Made by a program: the position numbers and the translations under genes. Shown here piece after piece: positions 28,946 through 36,506 of a stretch of 64,000 nt of DNA. Position 1 is the first letter of the stretch. Each line of letters starts with the position of its first letter. Source of the DNA: Candidatus Eisenbacteria bacterium (GTDB taxonomy: Bacteria; Eisenbacteria; RBG-16-71-46; CAIMUX01; JAHJDP01); contig JAHJDP010000084.1 in NCBI GenBank assembly GCA_018831195.1, forward strand, positions 62,001 through 126,000, given 5' to 3'. The notes beneath the pieces are model-generated. The model saw only the letters and a list, made by a program, of their open reading frames with translations. It ran no database searches and was not told the DNA's origin.

Positions 28946-29298
28946 GGTGTTACCTCCGCTGGCTTCCCGCCGGCAATCTCCTCGATTGGCAGATAGCTAA
29001 GGCAGCTAGACTCTAGCTTTATTCAAAGCCAATCTACCGTAACTCCAATCAAAACACCAGATGAATGAAACATCCAAAGCATACATCGTAAGCAATACTT
29101 ATTCGTAGATCAACGCATTTAAATACAATAAGATACGGCTGATTTCCCCTTGAAATTTCGGGGCAATCACCTAATGATATGGGTGTCGGCCGCACCGTCA
29201 CATAGTGACGGACTTTTTTTGGCCGTCTGTTTTTTGCATTATTGGAACATTGAATAATGACACCCCCAAAAACCTCAGTGAATAACGAGGAGCGCAGG
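28946..29298. other. Intergenic leader region upstream of the hydrogenase operon
   Basis: This AT-rich stretch of about 350 bases lies between the divergent lysine-rich ORF and the hydrogenase genes. It holds a TACAAT box near 29130 that could be a -10 element with a poor -35, and the terminator-like hairpin at 29195-29220. I see no open frame with a ribosome site. It is the likely control region of the hydrogenase operon. Confidence 0.5.
29195..29220 (+). terminator. Terminator-like hairpin or palindromic operator before the hydrogenase operon
   Basis: CCGTCAC (29195-29201), a 3-base loop, and GTGACGG (29205-29211) form a perfect 7-bp inverted repeat followed by AC and a run of seven T (29214-29220). 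This is the form of a Rho-independent terminator on the plus strand, yet no plus-strand gene lies close upstream. It could be an attenuator within the hydrogenase leader, the end of a small RNA, or a protein-binding palindrome. Confidence 0.55.
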
Positions 29299-31197
29299 AT
29301 GACTCGATTGATGTTGGAACAGGGCAGGGTGGACGATTTTATCAGGCATCTCCAGGCACAGCGGCCCGTTTATGCCCCGCGGCGCAAGGGACAATCTTCC
29401 TATGTCTTCGCGCCGGTAGATGACCCGAATGATGTCGTACTCGATTACCCCAGAACCCTGCACTCGGTGAAGAAGTACTTTCTTCCCCCGAGGGAAGAGT
29501 TGCTCAACTTCAATTTAAAGGCGAATTCCTATGGACAGCCGGAGATCGAGACGGCGAATGCCATTATGCTGGGTGTTCATTCGTATGATATGCATGCCGT
29601 GTTGAGGTTGGACTATAACCTCGCCAAAGGTAATAAAGAACGAAACTACTTTGCCCGGCGGCAAGGAACTCTCTTCATCGGGGTCTCGTTCTCGCCCGAT
29701 AAGTTTCATTTCTCGGGATCCTTGGGTATCTCTCCCTACGACACGACCGGCTTCGATCTCTTTTTGTATAAGGTTGACAAAGGTTTCGCTTTGGAGATTA
29801 TCACCGCGATGGGGGAGAAGCTTCTATCCGGCTTCGACCTTCCGGCGTTGGGAGTGCCTCTGCCTCCGCACGGCGAATTTCAGCAACATATTTATGTGCC
29901 GCAGAGTAAATTGTCCGAAGTCTTTGATCACAGCCAGGAAAACGCTGTTTGGGAAGAGGAGGCTGCGCGGTGCGTGAGCTGCGGCACCTGCAATATGGTC
30001 TGTCCGACTTGTTACTGTTTCGATGTAGAAGATGAAGTTGATGTAAGAGTCGTTGAGGGTACTAGAAATCGGCGTTGGGACGCCTGCATGCTGCGCGATT
30101 TCACGGAGGTCGCCGGTGGAGAGGTTTTCCGCCATAAATCGGCGGCCCGCCAGCGGCATCGTGTCTACCGGAAATTCAAGTATATTTCTGACCATACCGG
30201 CGAGCCATGGTGTGTCGGCTGCGGGCGTTGCACGGCATATTGCACGGCGAATATCAGCATTGTCAGCATTGTGAACCGCTTGGTGAACGATTACGAAAAA
30301 GACTCGACAGCGCGTCTCCCGCAGACCCAGCCGATAATCGATAGGGCTCGGGAAGGACACTCCGATCCGGCCGGGGAGGCGAAAGACCTCTATTCACCGG
30401 TCATGGCGGAAATCAAGTCGGTGCAACAGATGACCGATTTGGAGAAACTCTTCGAAATACAGCTGCCGGATGGCGCAGAACTCAATCACAAGCCGGGTCA
30501 GTTTGTCGAACTCTCTCTCTTTGGCGCGGGTGAAGCGCCGATCTCGATCTCTTCATCCCCGGCAAAGAAGGGTGTCTTTGATTTGGGGATCCGGAAGGTC
30601 GGCCGGTTGACGGAGATGATGCATCGTTTGCAGCCGGGTGACCGCGTCGGAATCCGGGGCCCTTTCGGCAATGGATTTGATCTGGAGAAACTCAAAGGCA
30701 AAGACGTCCTGATCATTGCCGGGGGGATCGGTTTGGTGCCCCTGCGCTCTTTGATCAATACTGTCATTGCCGACCGGGAAGCTTATGGACGCCTCATCAT
30801 CTGCTACGGCAGCAAGAGTGATCAAGAGCTGCTCTTTGGGAATGAGCGCAAGATGTGGGATGAGGATCCCTCCATCGAGTTTCATGTCACCGTCGATAGG
30901 GGTTCTCCCGATTGGACCGGAAAAATAGGGGTCATCACGACACTCATCCCCGAGCTGGCGCTTGATCTTGAAAGAACGATCGCCTGTATTTGCGGTCCGC
31001 CCATCATGTATCGGTTCGTACTCCTCGCCCTCAAATCAAAACGATTCCCGGAAGAGAATATCTATCTGTCGCTGGAGCGGCGGATGAAATGCGGTGTCGG
31101 CAAATGCGGCCATTGCCAGATCAATAACTCCTATGTCTGCCAAGACGGCCCAGTTTATCACTATCCGGCTATCAAGGGCCTCAAGGAGGCGCTCTAA
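29299..31197 (+). CDS. Group 3b [NiFe] hydrogenase electron-transfer subunit, fused beta (Fe-S) and gamma (FAD/NAD(P))
   Basis: The start is ATG 29299, six bases after GAGGAG; the upstream ATG at 29257 has no ribosome site. The 632-residue protein joins two parts usually encoded separately. Residues 1-330 match the sulfhydrogenase beta-subunit type, with 4Fe-4S motifs CVSCGTCNMVCPTC (about 224) and CVGCGRCTAYC (about 305). Residues about 365-632 match the gamma-type ferredoxin-NADP reductase-like part: SISSSPA (FAD), GGIGLVPLRSL (NAD(P)) and CGVGKCGHC for a 2Fe-2S cluster (about 597). It should link the hydrogenase to NAD(P)H in the cytoplasm. The small-subunit gene follows after one base. 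Confidence 0.9.
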   Translation: MTRLMLEQGRVDDFIRHLQAQRPVYAPRRKGQSSYVFAPVDDPNDVVLDYPRTLHSVKKYFLPPREELLNFNLKANSYGQPEIETANAIMLGVHSYDMHAVLRLDYNLAKGNKERNYFARRQGTLFIGVSFSPDKFHFSGSLGISPYDTTGFDLFLYKVDKGFALEIITAMGEKLLSGFDLPALGVPLPPHGEFQQHIYVPQSKLSEVFDHSQENAVWEEEAARCVSCGTCNMVCPTCYCFDVEDEVDVRVVEGTRNRRWDACMLRDFTEVAGGEVFRHKSAARQRHRVYRKFKYISDHTGEPWCVGCGRCTAYCTANISIVSIVNRLVNDYEKDSTARLPQTQPIIDRAREGHSDPAGEAKDLYSPVMAEIKSVQQMTDLEKLFEIQLPDGAELNHKPGQFVELSLFGAGEAPISISSSPAKKGVFDLGIRKVGRLTEMMHRLQPGDRVGIRGPFGNGFDLEKLKGKDVLIIAGGIGLVPLRSLINTVIADREAYGRLIICYGSKSDQELLFGNERKMWDEDPSIEFHVTVDRGSPDWTGKIGVITTLIPELALDLERTIACICGPPIMYRFVLLALKSKRFPEENIYLSLERRMKCGVGKCGHCQINNSYVCQDGPVYHYPAIKGLKEAL

Positions 31198-31198
31198 A

Positions 31199-31948
31199 AT
31201 GTCTAAGAAAGCACGAGTGGCCATCTTCGATTTTACGGGATGTGAAGGGTGCGAGCTGAACCATCTGAACTTCGAGGCTCAGCTGCTGGATATCCTCGAG
31301 CATGTCGAGATTGTTGAATGGCGTGAGGCGATGGATGAAAAGGCCGACGGGTACGACATCGCCTTTGTCGAGGGGTCGCTGTCGACACCCGATTGCATCA
31401 CTCGCATCCACAAGATCCGCCGCAAAGCTAAATTCCTCGTCGCGGTCGGCGCCTGTGCGGTGATCGGCGGCGTCAATGCCATGAAGAATACGCGGCCCAG
31501 TGAGGAAATCCGCGAGGAGGTTTATGGGAAAGATAAATACCTCTTCCCAAGCCTTCCGGCGCTTCCCCTGAGCGCGGTGGTCAAGGTTGATTTTAATGTC
31601 CGCGGCTGTCCCATGACCCAGATCGAGTTCCTCAAAGTCTTCACGGCTCTGGTGATGGGGAAGATGCCGGTTGAGCCCGATCATTCGGTCTGTGTCGAGT
31701 GCAAGCTGAAGGAAAACGAATGCGTTTATGATAAAGGGATGATCTGTCTTGGTCCGGTAACACGGGCTGGATGCGACGCCCACTGTCCGAGCTTCGGCCA
31801 GTATTGTTACGGATGCCGGGGACTCGTGTCGGAGCCGAATCTGAAGGCGATGGAAGAGATCCTTGTGAATCATGGGCTCTCGATGGATGAAGCGCATAAA
31901 CGGCTGCTTCTTTTCAACGCCAATCAGATTGAGGGGGTGACTTCGTGA
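31199..31948 (+). CDS. [NiFe] hydrogenase small (delta) subunit, group 3b-like
   Basis: The start is ATG 31199, nine bases after AAGGAGG, giving 249 residues; the frame is open further upstream only as a shadow of the preceding gene. Proximal-cluster cysteines appear in FTGCEGCELNH (C15, C18), GACAVIGG and VRGCPMTQ. The C-terminal half has cysteine-rich CVECKLKENEC, MICLGPVTRAGC and CPSFGQYCYGCRG motifs for two further 4Fe-4S clusters. There is no Tat signal, so the enzyme is cytoplasmic, as in NAD(P)-linked group 3 hydrogenases. The GTG of the large-subunit gene overlaps its stop by four bases. Confidence 0.93.
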   Translation: MSKKARVAIFDFTGCEGCELNHLNFEAQLLDILEHVEIVEWREAMDEKADGYDIAFVEGSLSTPDCITRIHKIRRKAKFLVAVGACAVIGGVNAMKNTRPSEEIREEVYGKDKYLFPSLPALPLSAVVKVDFNVRGCPMTQIEFLKVFTALVMGKMPVEPDHSVCVECKLKENECVYDKGMICLGPVTRAGCDAHCPSFGQYCYGCRGLVSEPNLKAMEEILVNHGLSMDEAHKRLLLFNANQIEGVTS

Positions 31949-33249
31949 GTCAAAATCTGGAAATCAAAGTGAAACACCTGACCAGGGTGGAGGGTCACGG
32001 CAACATCGTCGTGAACATGCTGGAAGGGGTCCTTGAGAAGGCGCAGCTTGATATTGTTGAAGCGCCACGTTATTTCGAGGCGATGCTGAAGGGCCGGTCC
32101 TTCCACGAGGCGGCTATTATCACATCACGGATCTGTGGAATCTGTTCGCTTGGGCATCAAATGACCTCGTTCAAAACGACTGAAGAGGCCTTGGGGCTGG
32201 AAATCAGCGAGCAGACCATCGCCCTGCGCAAGATCCTGATCCATGGCGCGACCATTCAATCCAACATCCTGCACTCCCTCTTTCTGGCGGCCCCTGATTT
32301 TTTAAAAGTCGGATCGGTTTTCCCGCTGATCGGCACCCATCCCGAAGTAGTCAAGGCGGCGCTAAGGATGAAAGGGCTGGCTAATGATATCAGTTCGGTG
32401 ATCGCCGGTCGGGCCGTCCATCCGATTTCCTGTGTCCCCGGTGGATTCACAAAACTGCCGGACGCGGCTCAGCTCGCGGAGCTGAAGGGGCGGCTCGAAA
32501 AGGAGATGATCCCCGATCTTACCTTTGCGGCGGAAGTGCTGACTTCGTTGGCATCCGAGATCCCCGGCTTCACCCGCGATACCGAGTATATTTCACTGCG
32601 CAGCGATGACGATTATGCCCTCTATGACGGCGATATCTGCTCATCCGACACAGGGCGCGTTCCCGACTCGGAATATCGATCGATGACGAATGAATTTATC
32701 GTCCCGCATAGCACCGCGAAGCACAGCAGGGCGAATCGCTCGTCATTCATGGTCGGTGCGCTGGCGCGCTGGAACAATAACCATGACCGGCTCTGCCCGG
32801 AGGCGATGGCAGTTGCAGAGAAACTTGGGCTGAAGGCGCCTTGCACAAATCCTTTTATGAATACGATCGCCCAGGTTGTCGAGTCGGTGCATTGCGCCAT
32901 AGATGCCATCCGGCTTATTGACAGTCTCCTCACCAAGGGGATTAAGCCGGAGCTGCCGAACCAGAAGCCGACACGCTACGGTTCGGGTGTGGGAGCGACC
33001 GAAGTCCCGCGAGGCATCCTCTACCATGAGTATGCGTATGATCGGCAGGGAAGGATTATGTCGGCGAATTGTGTCATTCCGACGAGCCAGAATTTGGCCA
33101 ACATTGATGATGACATGAAGAAGATCGTTCCGGAAATATGCGATCGCCCAAAGAAAGAGATAATCCATGGGCTCGAGATGTTGGTTCGCGCTTATGACCC
33201 GTGTATCTCCTGCTCCGTCCACATGCTTGATGTCGAGTTTGTGGAATAG
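31945..33249 (+). CDS. [NiFe] hydrogenase large (alpha) catalytic subunit, group 3b-like
   Basis: A 434-residue catalytic subunit starting at GTG 31945. Both nickel-ligand motifs are intact: RICGICSLGH (about residue 62, N-terminal CxxC) and DPCISCSVH near the end (about 418-426). After the final His there is an eight-residue tail, MLDVEFVE, the type of C-terminal extension removed by a dedicated endopeptidase after nickel insertion; such an endopeptidase is encoded directly downstream. Group 3b enzymes couple H2 to NADP(H), can run in both directions, and some reduce sulfur. Assignment to 3b rests on the beta/gamma-type partner and small subunit and should be confirmed by phylogeny. Confidence 0.93.
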   Translation: MSQNLEIKVKHLTRVEGHGNIVVNMLEGVLEKAQLDIVEAPRYFEAMLKGRSFHEAAIITSRICGICSLGHQMTSFKTTEEALGLEISEQTIALRKILIHGATIQSNILHSLFLAAPDFLKVGSVFPLIGTHPEVVKAALRMKGLANDISSVIAGRAVHPISCVPGGFTKLPDAAQLAELKGRLEKEMIPDLTFAAEVLTSLASEIPGFTRDTEYISLRSDDDYALYDGDICSSDTGRVPDSEYRSMTNEFIVPHSTAKHSRANRSSFMVGALARWNNNHDRLCPEAMAVAEKLGLKAPCTNPFMNTIAQVVESVHCAIDAIRLIDSLLTKGIKPELPNQKPTRYGSGVGATEVPRGILYHEYAYDRQGRIMSANCVIPTSQNLANIDDDMKKIVPEICDRPKKEIIHGLEMLVRAYDPCISCSVHMLDVEFVE

Positions 33250-33257
33250 GCGGTCCG

Positions 33258-33743
33258 GTGGAAATCGACATGGTGAAGATCATCGCCGTTGGAAATCCGT
33301 ATTACGGGGATGACGGGGTTGGCGCCGCGGTCTTGACCCGTATTCGGGAGGAATCCCTCTTCCCGAATGCCGAGTTGATAGATGCGCAAACCGATTCCCT
33401 TTCGTTGGTAGAACACTTCACTAACGACGGATTACATGTCATCATTGATGCAGCGAAGATGGGTTTGCCCCCCGGCGGCGTCGCCCGTTTTTTGCCGGAT
33501 GAAGTCTCCCAGAGGATCCGGTGGGATCGGCTCTCGCTTCACGGGTTTGGTCTGGCGGAGACATTGGAATTGGCCCGGCGGATCGACAAGGTGCCGGAAC
33601 GTTTGGTGATTATCGGAGTGGAACCCGAGATCGTGGAAATCGATCAAGGGCTCTCAAATAGTGTGGCTGCGGCCATTCCGGAGATTCTGGCGAGTATCGA
33701 AGCGGAGGTTCAGTCCTATGAATCGGACCATTCTGATCATTGA
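33258..33743 (+). CDS. Hydrogenase maturation endopeptidase (HycI/HoxW family)
   Basis: A 161-residue protease with the family signature GNPYYGDDGVGAAV near the N-terminus (metal-sensing Asp) and DAQTDSLSLVEHF, then IIDAAKMGLPPG and LSLHGFGLAETL (His). It cleaves the C-terminal tail of the large subunit once nickel is in place, which fits its position 9 bases downstream of that gene. The start may be GTG 33258 or ATG 33270; neither has a strong ribosome site, and coupling to the upstream stop is likely. Its 3' end overlaps the response regulator gene by 26 bases. Confidence 0.92.
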   Translation: MEIDMVKIIAVGNPYYGDDGVGAAVLTRIREESLFPNAELIDAQTDSLSLVEHFTNDGLHVIIDAAKMGLPPGGVARFLPDEVSQRIRWDRLSLHGFGLAETLELARRIDKVPERLVIIGVEPEIVEIDQGLSNSVAAAIPEILASIEAEVQSYESDHSDH

Positions 33744-34110
33744 CGACGACATCGACCTGGTGGAGGTCATCCGGCTGACCCTCGAAGCGGAAGGTTTCGA
33801 GGTGATTGATGCGCAGAACGGAGCTCGCGGGATTGAGTTGGCGCGCCAAAAGAATCCTGACATCATTTTGCTGGATGTTATGCTGGAGGATATTGATGAG
33901 GGATTCCAGGTGGCCTACGAGCTGCGCAAGGGTGATGACACCAAAGATATCCCTATCCTGATGCTGTCGGCCGTATCCGATCAAACCGGCTACAGTTTCG
34001 ATAGGGATAAGGACCAAGAGTTTCTTCCTGTGGATGAGTTCATCGAAAAGCCGGTCAGTCCTAAAGCGCTCGTGGACCTTGTGAGGAAACATTTGCCAGC
34101 GAATGCATGA
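33718..34110 (+). CDS. Single-domain response regulator (receiver only)
   Basis: A 130-residue receiver domain starting at ATG 33718 (GGAGG nine bases upstream), inside the end of the protease gene. Features are TILIIDDDIDLVEV (acidic pocket), IILLDVMLEDI (acceptor Asp, about residue 52), a switch Ser in MLSAVSD and FIEKPV (Lys). There is no output domain: the protein stops right after the last receiver helix. It overlaps the kinase gene by ATGA. A CheY-like mode, acting on a protein partner or relaying phosphate to another regulator, is therefore more likely than direct DNA binding. Confidence 0.93.
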   Translation: MNRTILIIDDDIDLVEVIRLTLEAEGFEVIDAQNGARGIELARQKNPDIILLDVMLEDIDEGFQVAYELRKGDDTKDIPILMLSAVSDQTGYSFDRDKDQEFLPVDEFIEKPVSPKALVDLVRKHLPANA

Positions 34111-35471
34111 TGAATGATAAGACGGCCGATACCGAACTGATTGCGGAGGATTCCGCGCAGTTTGTTTCTGCGACCTCTCTTCGCATCCGCACCGATTGGT
34201 TTAACCGGATCCGGTGGGGGGTTGGGGCCTGGATTATGGCCCTGGTGCTTTTGGCCGAAGCGGTTTATCACATTCCGCTCCCCTTGCCTCAAATCATCTT
34301 AGTACTTGCTGTCTTGCTTCTGCTCAATGTCACCTATGTCATTCGCAATCGCCGCGTTGCTCCAACCGAGTTCAAGGCGGAGATCCGGATGGTCAAGATC
34401 GAAATGATTCTGGATCTATTGTTTGTCACTGTTTTATTGAACTTTTCAGGTGGATTGGAGAATCCCTTCTATTTCATTTATGCCCCGCATGTATTGATCG
34501 CCAGCTTGCTGTTTAAGGGCCGCGAGATTTATCAGATAACATTTGCCGCCGCCCTCATGTTTACCGGGCTGGTGATCGGTGAATTCACCGGGATCCTGCC
34601 CCATTATCAGCTTATGGAAGGGATGACCGCCTCCAGCAGCCTACCGTACATTACGGTGACGTTGGTTGTCTTTTGGCCCGTGCTTTTCGGTATAGCCTAT
34701 CTCGGCGCCAGGATTATGAGGCATAACCGCTCCATCAAGGATGAGCTGGTCCTGCGCCAGCGGCAGCTCATTGTCGCCGACAAGGCGAAGATCGATTTCT
34801 TTCGTTATGTTTCGCACGAGGTGAAAACGCCGATTGTGACAGCGCAAAGTGCGCTTGAGGCAGTCCTTCAGCTTTCCGGCGATGAGCTTCCCGAAAAATC
34901 CAGAGATATGCTGCTACGCGCTGTAAAGCGGCTAAATCAGGCGATCAATATTGTTAAAGATCTTTCGGAAATAACAAAAACCAGGATGCATGCCGTTCAG
35001 GATGTTAAAGAAATCAATCTCAACGAGATGATCGACCTTCTTTTGCAGAAGCATACGGAGAGGATCACCGAGAAGCAAATCAGGGTTGAAACGCATCTGC
35101 CGCAGCCGACGGTTATTCTGCGGGGCAATGAGACGATGATTGAGATGATGATTGGCAATCTCATCAGCAATGCCGTACGGTATAATCGTACGGATGGCCA
35201 AATTGATATTACGGTGCGGGATCTCGGCGTCCAGATCGCAATTAGTGTTGCCGATTCGGGAATCGGAATCGCGCCGGAGAACCGGGAACGCGTTTTTGAA
35301 GAATTCTACCGCTCACCGGAGGCCAGAGAGATCTCCTCGGCTGGAACCGGTCTGGGGTTGCATATCGTGAAGCAATTTGTGGAACAATTGGGAGGAGCGG
35401 TCCAGGTGGAGAGTGAGCAGGGCAAGGGGTCCACTTTTACAATCTATCTGCCGACAACGAAGAAGTTATGA
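34107..35471 (+). CDS. RegB/PrrB-like redox-sensing membrane histidine kinase
   Basis: A 454-residue kinase with about six N-terminal membrane helices. Between helices, at about residues 115-121, lies GGLENPF, which matches the GGxxNPF heptapeptide described as the quinone-binding site of RegB/PrrB/ActS kinases. Then come a linker, HisKA (YVSHEVKTPIVTAQSA, His about 235), and a HATPase domain with GNLISNAVRYN, DSGIGIAPENR and GTGLGLHIVKQF. RegB systems are known to control hydrogenase and respiratory genes by quinone redox state. Here the gene sits in the hydrogenase operon between a receiver-only regulator and an ACT protein, with four-base overlaps on both sides. No long extracytoplasmic domain is visible. 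Confidence 0.9.
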   Translation: MMNDKTADTELIAEDSAQFVSATSLRIRTDWFNRIRWGVGAWIMALVLLAEAVYHIPLPLPQIILVLAVLLLLNVTYVIRNRRVAPTEFKAEIRMVKIEMILDLLFVTVLLNFSGGLENPFYFIYAPHVLIASLLFKGREIYQITFAAALMFTGLVIGEFTGILPHYQLMEGMTASSSLPYITVTLVVFWPVLFGIAYLGARIMRHNRSIKDELVLRQRQLIVADKAKIDFFRYVSHEVKTPIVTAQSALEAVLQLSGDELPEKSRDMLLRAVKRLNQAINIVKDLSEITKTRMHAVQDVKEINLNEMIDLLLQKHTERITEKQIRVETHLPQPTVILRGNETMIEMMIGNLISNAVRYNRTDGQIDITVRDLGVQIAISVADSGIGIAPENRERVFEEFYRSPEAREISSAGTGLGLHIVKQFVEQLGGAVQVESEQGKGSTFTIYLPTTKKL

Positions 35472-35947
35472 CGGATAAAATCGAATGCGGCGGCCTGATT
35501 CGACGCGAGGACCTTTGCCTCCTCGAAATCCTGGGATACGATCTGAAAGCATGCGGGAAATTCGATATTTTGGATCTCTTCGGTGATGCGAAGATCCCCA
35601 TTTCCTATCTTGCCGTCAGCAATGGAGCTGACGGACTGCGGAACATGTCATTGTGCGTCCCCCTGGAACACCTCTATCAATTGCGCAATCTAAGGGAAGG
35701 CATCCAGAAAGGGTGCGCCCCCCAGCGACTGAAGACTGTAGAAAACACGATGGTCCTCACCATCTACGGTCCTCATTTCTACGAAAAGGCATCGATTGCC
35801 GGCGTTGTCTATGGCGCGCTCCGCCGGGAGGAGATCTATACTCATTCGATCAATTCCTCTGTGAACAGTATCTCTTTTGTCATCAACGCGGATGACTGCC
35901 AGCGGACAATCCGCTGCTTGAAAACACGCATCTCCTGGCCGGAATGA
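35468..35947 (+). CDS. ACT-domain protein in the hydrogenase/redox-sensor operon
   Basis: A 159-residue protein whose ATG overlaps the kinase stop. The C-terminal part (about residues 85-155) contains VLTIYGPHFYEKASIAGVV and NSISFVINADDCQRTIRCL. This strongly resembles the second ACT domain of aspartate kinases (VSIVGxxMxxxxGIAGxxF ... ISFVVxxxD). The N-terminal half may be a degenerate first ACT domain and has cysteines at about 7, 17 and 29. No kinase domain is present, so it should be a ligand-binding regulator, perhaps sensing an amino acid and modulating the kinase or hydrogenase. I do not know a described counterpart in hydrogenase operons. Confidence 0.7.
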   Translation: MTDKIECGGLIRREDLCLLEILGYDLKACGKFDILDLFGDAKIPISYLAVSNGADGLRNMSLCVPLEHLYQLRNLREGIQKGCAPQRLKTVENTMVLTIYGPHFYEKASIAGVVYGALRREEIYTHSINSSVNSISFVINADDCQRTIRCLKTRISWPE

Positions 35948-35948
35948 T

Positions 35949-36506
35949 CTAATATGTCACTTCAGATTCAATACCTTTCAGATCCTTGAGTTGTATCTCA
36001 ACATTCACTGAGCCCGGTTCGATCGTGGAAAGGTCGGCCCGTGCAAAGAGATAATCTTGTATGAAGAGAGTCATCCCGCCACAGAGCTTGCACTGGCCAG
36101 GCTCCATTTGAACGACATCCGGATGCATCGGGCAAAAATAGATGGAGGTTTCATCGTCAGCCGGTTTTTGCTGTAGCAAGGGGATCACTTCCTTCGTTTT
36201 ATTCTTATAAATCAAAGTGGCCGTTCCGGTTGATTTTTGTATCATCATCGGGGCCTGTTGGGCCGAGTAAATGAAAACCCGTATCCCATCCTTTGCGAAG
36301 AGTGTCTCGAACTGATGATGATCAGTTATGCTGAGCTTTCCACCATGAAGTCCGACACTGTCTGAATGTTCACCCATCTCTCCATCGGCAGATTTCTCGG
36401 CCATGGCGTGAGATCCGGCATCATGATGATCCGATAAAGCCATCCCGGTCAAGAAAGCCATAAAAAAAGCAATGCTGAGTACGAGTGTTCTTGGTATGCG
36501 CTGCAT
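35949..36506 (-). CDS. Exported heavy-metal-binding-domain protein
   Basis: A 185-residue protein starting at ATG 36506 (AAGGAG seven bases upstream) with a signal peptide ending near MALSDHH. A His/Asp-rich segment follows (DHHDAGSHAMAE), and the C-terminal half has a heavy-metal-binding motif YFCPMHPDVVQMEPGQCKLC then GGM, as in the YHS/HMBD domains of copper and other metal-handling proteins. It probably binds copper or nickel in the periplasm. Its stop lies one base from the convergent ACT gene. A strong sigma-54 promoter precedes it. Placement next to hypB and hypA suggests a link with nickel supply, but this is inference. Confidence 0.82.
   Translation of the reverse strand: MQRIPRTLVLSIAFFMAFLTGMALSDHHDAGSHAMAEKSADGEMGEHSDSVGLHGGKLSITDHHQFETLFAKDGIRVFIYSAQQAPMMIQKSTGTATLIYKNKTKEVIPLLQQKPADDETSIYFCPMHPDVVQMEPGQCKLCGGMTLFIQDYLFARADLSTIEPGSVNVEIQLKDLKGIESEVTY

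Follow-up and report, generated by a model that had tools for sequence, protein, structure and literature searches.

What are a membrane histidine kinase, a lone receiver and a free-standing ACT protein doing at the end of a hydrogenase operon? The question is raised by a stretch of 64,000 nucleotides from Candidatus Eisenbacteria bacterium (assembly GCA_018831195.1, contig JAHJDP010000084.1, positions 62,001 to 126,000 of the forward strand), referred to here as the window, in which a [NiFe]-hydrogenase and these three genes lie on the + strand as one operon-like unit in the order HydBG(fused)–small–large–protease–receiver–kinase–ACT. An earlier sequence-only reading had noted overlaps of 26, 4 and 4 bases between protease and receiver, receiver and kinase, and kinase and ACT; these agreed base for base with the open reading frames of the window, and all four frames are intact. 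Its view that the four genes form a single unit with the hydrogenase genes was borne out, and the association holds throughout a clade of related hydrogenases. That this is a real functional module is nearly certain. Our best explanation, held with about even confidence, is a regulatory module that belongs to one group 3b clade and is inherited together with its hydrogenase; in this module, kinase and ACT would be the sensing half and the receiver the switch on the hydrogenase side.

From the side of the ACT protein, 84,980 species genomes were scanned with the pattern [TGA][VI][YF]GPHF[RY]E, which holds no hydrogenase information and favours GPHF-bearing members. The scan gave 36 confirmed loci, mainly in Calditrichota and Neomarinimicrobiota, with others in Eisenbacteria, Fermentibacteria, one Gemmatimonadetes-labelled genome and a few others. 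At 20 of the 29 loci that could be judged, ACT ends a same-strand series hydrogenase-protease-receiver-(kinase)-ACT; nine loci were unlinked to a hydrogenase and a further seven lay on contigs ending too early. From the side of the hydrogenase, the phylum to which genome G100 belongs was covered with 245 genomes; 39 of these carried a large subunit of the clade with an identity of at least 60%, and where the contig was long enough both a receiver (35/35) and an ACT gene (31/31) followed behind. Four hydrogenases of the same phylum with 39–50% identity had neither. Domain-wide, 385 genomes contributed four hydrogenases with at least 67% identity, all with the module (one cut by the contig end, one without the kinase). 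None of 34 hydrogenases with 41–55% identity in these genomes was followed by ACT; two of them had a receiver alone directly behind (in one case with a kinase) and one had a convergent receiver and kinase. Taken together, the 38 related hydrogenases with 39–55% identity were all without ACT. When the window's own phylum was surveyed by order and class, the clade hydrogenase was found in the window only. Nearly all relatives are metagenome-assembled, and absence calls on short contigs were set aside.

The module holders form one clade (support 100/99) in a maximum-likelihood tree of 84 large subunits, which was rooted for drawing only. When pairwise distances were compared between the large subunit, the receiver, the kinase and ACT, they correlated with r values of 0.86–0.93, and none of 2000 permutations gave values as high. 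Chance does not account for the arrangement, as genomes of different phyla have the genes in this order and the distances agree from gene to gene. Within this clade, the co-occurrence of receiver, kinase and ACT with the hydrogenase is strongly positive, and homologues of the module genes do not normally lie away from hydrogenases. The convergent receiver and kinase mentioned above (L041:352-1975, beside a 53% hydrogenase) include a kinase with no membrane sensor, whose N-terminus resembles, by eye, a Rossmann NAD(P)-binding domain.

The phosphorelay residues of the module are intact. The receiver (33718..34110, +) consists of one Response_reg domain (Pfam, 1.4e-17) and, as the sequence-only reading had stated, no output domain was detected in it with Pfam or NCBIfam. 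It contains D10, D11, D53, S84 and K111 as well as a long loop ending in FLPVDEFIEKP. The phosphorylation residues are kept in 18 of 18 operon receivers, with S or T at position 84, and the predicted phospho-acceptor Asp53 (codon 33874..33876, +) is invariant among them. The catalytic half of the membrane kinase (34107..35471, +) is of the ordinary HisKA and HATPase_c type and is joined to six transmembrane (TM) helices, as indicated by Pfam and an AlphaFold2 model; its predicted phospho-acceptor is His237 (codon 34815..34817, +) within the H-box SHEVKTP. Very probably, the kinase phosphorylates the receiver encoded in its own operon.

As to the signal, the kinase had been read as RegB-like and quinone-sensing. 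The roles of GGXXNPF and Cys265 in RegB have been described (PMC8191878). In the window kinase, the motif GGLENPF (residues 115-121; 34449..34469, +) falls into the RegB quinone loop by both alignment and model: RegB-like kinases can be aligned along the entire length of the sensor half, the motif being in register, and the helices of the model (22-52, 60-83, 89-113, 120-135, 139-161, 179 onward) place it between TM3 and TM4. A sensor-only BLAST search against RegB-like kinases gave E values of 1e-10 to 5e-8, obtained with a tiny three-sequence database. The yardstick consisted of three RegB-like kinases at 225–252 bits, which is below the curated cut-off, and true RegB genes above this cut-off were not found in the searched genomes. 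Among 48 matches of the window's genome to the ActS/PrrB/RegB model, the window kinase was the best and the sole one running across the sensor. In the 24 module kinases that are full-length and have a membrane sensor, GG and P are invariant, and all 24 have GGxx[NS]P. Judged by its sequence, the protein has a RegB-type sensor without being a RegB itself. Quinone reading by this kinase is plausible, and we would give a membrane or quinone redox input an even chance.

The last gene (35468..35947, +) encodes a stand-alone tandem ACT protein of 159 amino acids. It matches TIGR00657 at positions 319-439 of 442 (E 1.4e-9), that is, the regulatory half of aspartate kinase only, and this match is shared by all 37 aligned family members. 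No aspartokinase catalytic domain was detected in the gene or the operon by Pfam and NCBIfam. The AlphaFold2 model of the protein (pLDDT 92) found its best PDB matches in aspartokinase regulatory subunits (TM-score about 0.83), and all 50 PDB matches listed were aspartokinase structures. Match and model thus uphold the earlier description as an aspartate-kinase regulatory domain without the kinase. The protein shares its tandem ACT fold with aspartokinase regulatory (beta) subunits such as LysC-beta of Corynebacterium glutamicum (family-profile E down to 6e-38 for the best PDB match), but differs by the missing catalytic domain, by GPHF.E in place of the GxGM loop and, in the window lineage, by the loss of effector residues. 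The signature GPHFYE of ACT2 (35768..35785, +) has G, P, H, F and E invariant in 37/37 members, whereas aspartokinases have G-x-G-M there. The window protein has no match in IMG/VR. D274, P276, G277 and N374 are what we take to be effector-site residues of the C. glutamicum enzyme. In its numbering, P276 and G277 are kept in 35, N374 and I375 in 32 and S381 in all of the 37 members, and an amino-acid ligand appears plausible for most of the family. Mutants of the C. glutamicum aspartokinase at I272, A279, Q298, I375 and S381 are altered in feedback (PMC10464499). As a side observation, a GPHF-type ACT gene lies behind a class II fructose-bisphosphate-aldolase-like gene in Fermentibacteria and Eisenbacteria (L107:380-2372, by Pfam; L108:8408-10468, by eye).

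Which part does what is indicated by operons that have come apart. In genomes G633 and G635 the hydrogenase keeps protease and receiver, and kinase and ACT are found elsewhere as an adjacent pair, which lies beside hypEDCF-like genes in L111 and before an ahcY-like gene in L115. The G100/L094 lineage, in turn, has lost the local kinase and retains receiver and ACT. Therefore, the receiver belongs with the hydrogenase, and ACT goes with the kinase or the receiver. These split operons are our main ground for suggesting that kinase and ACT sense and that the receiver delivers. ACT probably acts together with the kinase or the receiver. Inspection by eye also showed detached kinase-ACT or receiver-ACT genes near an S-adenosylhomocysteinase-like gene (L115:2368-5555, L118:1310-5271) and, at L112:3994-8865, detached module genes after saccharopine/lysine-dehydrogenase-like genes.

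From these data we infer the signal, the partner of ACT and the output as follows. The RegB-type six-helix membrane domain, whose GGxxNP loop would lie close to the surface of the membrane, would read a membrane redox signal, most likely the state of the quinone or menaquinone pool. This signal would set autophosphorylation of His237, and the phosphate would be transferred to Asp53 of the receiver. ACT, translationally coupled to the kinase, might tune the kinase or the phosphorylated receiver as a second, metabolite-type input; our working analogy is PII acting on NtrB, a small metabolite protein on a histidine kinase, to which there is no sequence relation. The phosphorylated receiver could then bind the hydrogenase or act on its maturation, so that H2 production and uptake would be matched to the respiratory state. 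An output through protein contact on the hydrogenase system is put forward tentatively, with slightly less than even confidence. A bolder version is rather improbable: the phosphorylated receiver, set by the membrane-redox kinase with ACT as co-sensor, would bind the hydrogenase as a fast switch of its activity or direction, and the same subfamily would serve [NiFe]- and [FeFe]-hydrogenases in many phyla as a general post-translational switch.

Several observations weigh against a kinase and ACT sensing unit that reads quinone and acts on the hydrogenase. The window kinase has no cysteine at all; the Cys conserved in RegB-like kinases aligns to a non-Cys position, and no Cys is conserved in the clade. 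The redox cysteine expected from a comparison with RegB is thus missing, and the RegB core is absent too, with a different H-box and catalytic core and an NF033792 score of 108 bits compared with a cut-off of 350. Of the claim of a RegB-like quinone sensor, therefore, the six-TM sensor and the GGxxNP position in the RegB loop stood, and membership in the RegB family did not. Strict GGxxNPF is limited to seven of the 24 full-length kinases; most relatives have another residue in place of F, and four have S in place of N. The window ACT has L, A, C and K at the positions of D274, P276, G277 and A279 and Y and T at those of N374 and I375. Because effector residues are lost, an amino-acid ligand is doubtful for this protein; the suggestion that ACT might read an amino acid fits most of the family and not the window member, for which a lysine or threonine sensor was weakened as a candidate. 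In the lineage of G100 and G583 (L094), receiver and ACT are kept with no kinase beside them. ACT-bearing genomes G631, G634, G636 and G638 showed no hydrogenase of the clade, possibly due to incomplete assemblies. A relative in the Eisenbacteria (L081; L081/L103:1051-3224) has a module of receiver, GAF-like kinase and ACT on a contig that carries no hydrogenase; its kinase sensor is exchanged. Finally, a receiver without a DNA-binding domain could still work via an unlinked partner.

Single-domain receivers such as Spo0F and DivK act in relays, and with these precedents the receiver might pass phosphate or contact to an unlinked DNA-binding protein, the module autoregulating the hydrogenase operon. 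A transcriptional two-component system of this kind, possible but in our opinion unlikely, would resemble the HoxJ-HoxA hydrogenase systems, which control transcription (PMC10073562), and a 7-base-pair inverted repeat (CCGTCACATAGTGACGG, 29195-29211) located 46–62 bases upstream of HydBG could be its operator. With a T run behind it, the repeat may as well be a terminator; sites of its type showed no enrichment over shuffles. Moreover, no DNA-binding gene was seen inside the module at the loci examined, and in genomes where kinase and ACT lie elsewhere the receiver is still found next to the structural genes, as expected of the part that touches the enzyme. If, on the other hand, the hydrogenase itself were the input, H2 or NAD(P)H turnover would be reported via receiver, kinase and ACT to cell physiology, similar to H2 sensing by regulatory hydrogenases. 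The H2-sensing HoxBC/HupUV systems do join a hydrogenase with a kinase, and the adjacent receiver gene in Syntrophaceticus has been interpreted in this way (PMC5113046). The full electron-transfer set (HydB, HydG and NAD(P) site), the C-terminal extension and the protease speak for a catalytic hydrogenase, however, and the kinase is of a redox-sensor type integral to the membrane, unlike the soluble PAS kinases HoxJ and HupT, which makes this direction of signalling improbable.

Almost equally improbable, though marginally less so, is that ACT is the main sensor, for the lysine/threonine family, and ties H2 production to amino-acid fermentation with the kinase in a secondary role. The effector positions kept in most of the family, the retention of receiver and ACT in the kinase-less lineage of L094 and peptide fermentation by Caldithrix (PMC5317091) would agree with such a gate. 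The window lineage, having L, C, Y and T in place of D274, G277, N374 and I375, retains the operon nevertheless, and it is GPHF.E that is the invariant part. Operons move as blocks and the clade is monophyletic, so that the regulators might lie beside the hydrogenase through descent or joint transfer only. We rejected such neutral hitch-hiking, which has hardly any probability left, on the grounds of conservation: gene order, overlaps and receiver phosphorylation residues are kept across several phyla and with kinase identities as low as 25%, and kinase-ACT pairs that have become detached still lie together.

The co-inherited module preferred here has partial counterparts. It shares with HoxBC/HupUV-HoxJ/HupT-HoxA/HupR a two-component control tied to hydrogenase genes; these systems have an NtrC-type activator with a DNA-binding domain, a regulatory-hydrogenase sensor and a soluble PAS kinase (see also PMC10073562), whereas the window has a bare receiver and a membrane kinase with ACT. 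With RegB/PrrB/ActS it has in common the six-TM sensor, alignable across its whole length, and GGxxNPF in the TM3–TM4 loop. RegB has the Cys265 redox box (PMC8191878), which the window kinase lacks, and the RegB partner RegA binds DNA, while the partner in the window is a lone receiver and the kinase is encoded in the hydrogenase operon.

Group 3b features are all present in the hydrogenase: large, small, HydB and HydG subunits, protease and C-terminal extension. It is predicted to be a cytosolic, NAD(P)-linked enzyme of the group 3b type with NAD(P)-dependent H2 activity. By Pfam and NCBIfam, the HydB-HydG fusion (29257..31197, +) comprises a 4Fe-4S beta part (about residues 1-350) and a FAD/NAD(P) gamma part (about 376-646). 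The small subunit (31199..31948, +) starts with MSKKARVAIF one base past the HydBG stop, and is followed by the large subunit (31945..33249, +), which extends past CSVH, and by a maturation protease of the HycI/HyaD family (33258..33743, +). Subunits and their order are common to group 3b and archaeal sulfhydrogenase I, and among solved structures those of archaeal cytosolic enzymes (5yxy, sulfhydrogenase 1) come closest; the window hydrogenase belongs to a distinct clade, however, and reached 266 of 880 bits with the archaeal equivalog models, far under the cut-off. The same subunits and order are found in the group 3b hydrogenase of Caldithrix abyssi (Cabys_3226-3229). The genome paper on this bacterium describes the four subunits of the enzyme and, within the gene cluster, a protease gene, and never mentions a histidine kinase (PMC5317091). 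Related hydrogenases at 48–50% (L169, L170, L209 and L216; L168 alike) end directly at CSVH without a C-terminal extension, and no protease gene was found behind them; maturation may proceed without proteolysis here. Selenocysteine at the in-frame stops of some 49–50% hydrogenases was rejected as an explanation, the readable L169, L170, L209 and L216 having normal ends after CSVH.

The receiver extends the subject beyond this enzyme. Among its best 20 homologues in the 385 genomes, 15 lie within 8 kb of hydrogenase-related genes, counted as [NiFe]-3b type, [FeFe]/NuoF hydrogenase, sulfhydrogenase beta-gamma pair or hyp genes, compared with 9 of 20 lower-ranked ones. The subfamily, recognizable by the long loop ending in FLPV.EF.EKP, looks like a general hydrogenase companion. 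In Syntrophaceticus, such a receiver gene adjoins a cytosolic [NiFe]-hydrogenase (PMC5113046). Subfamily members were also seen beside [FeFe]-hydrogenase/NuoF or hyp genes at L077, L082, L083, L088, L089, L091 and L092 and further at L240, L245, L247, L249, L251, L252 and L259.

No publication joining ACT domain, histidine kinase, hydrogenase and operon was found in a search that left most subscription journals outside, in agreement with the sequence-only reading, which knew of no description of such a system. Anaerobes as well as bacteria of the dark ocean and of sediments commonly have group 3b hydrogenases, and the control of their direction, H2-making or H2-using, is largely open. A dedicated kit in the same operon suggests that the hydrogenases of this clade are directly signal-controlled, and a conserved module with an intact phosphorelay makes the control of direction testable. 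The clade is spread over several little-studied bacterial phyla with the module in nearly every member; since it is also present in relatives of Caldithrix, there may be a cultivated bacterium to work with. In addition, the GPHF.E signature defines a new stand-alone ACT family, and the receiver subfamily accompanies hydrogenases of two unrelated types.

Two minor features of the locus concern its ends. HydB and HydG form one protein of 646 amino acids in the window, whereas relatives such as L239 show separate matches with a gap between them. At the other end, a convergent gene with a heavy-metal-binding domain (HMBD; 35949-36506) ends one base from the ACT stop.

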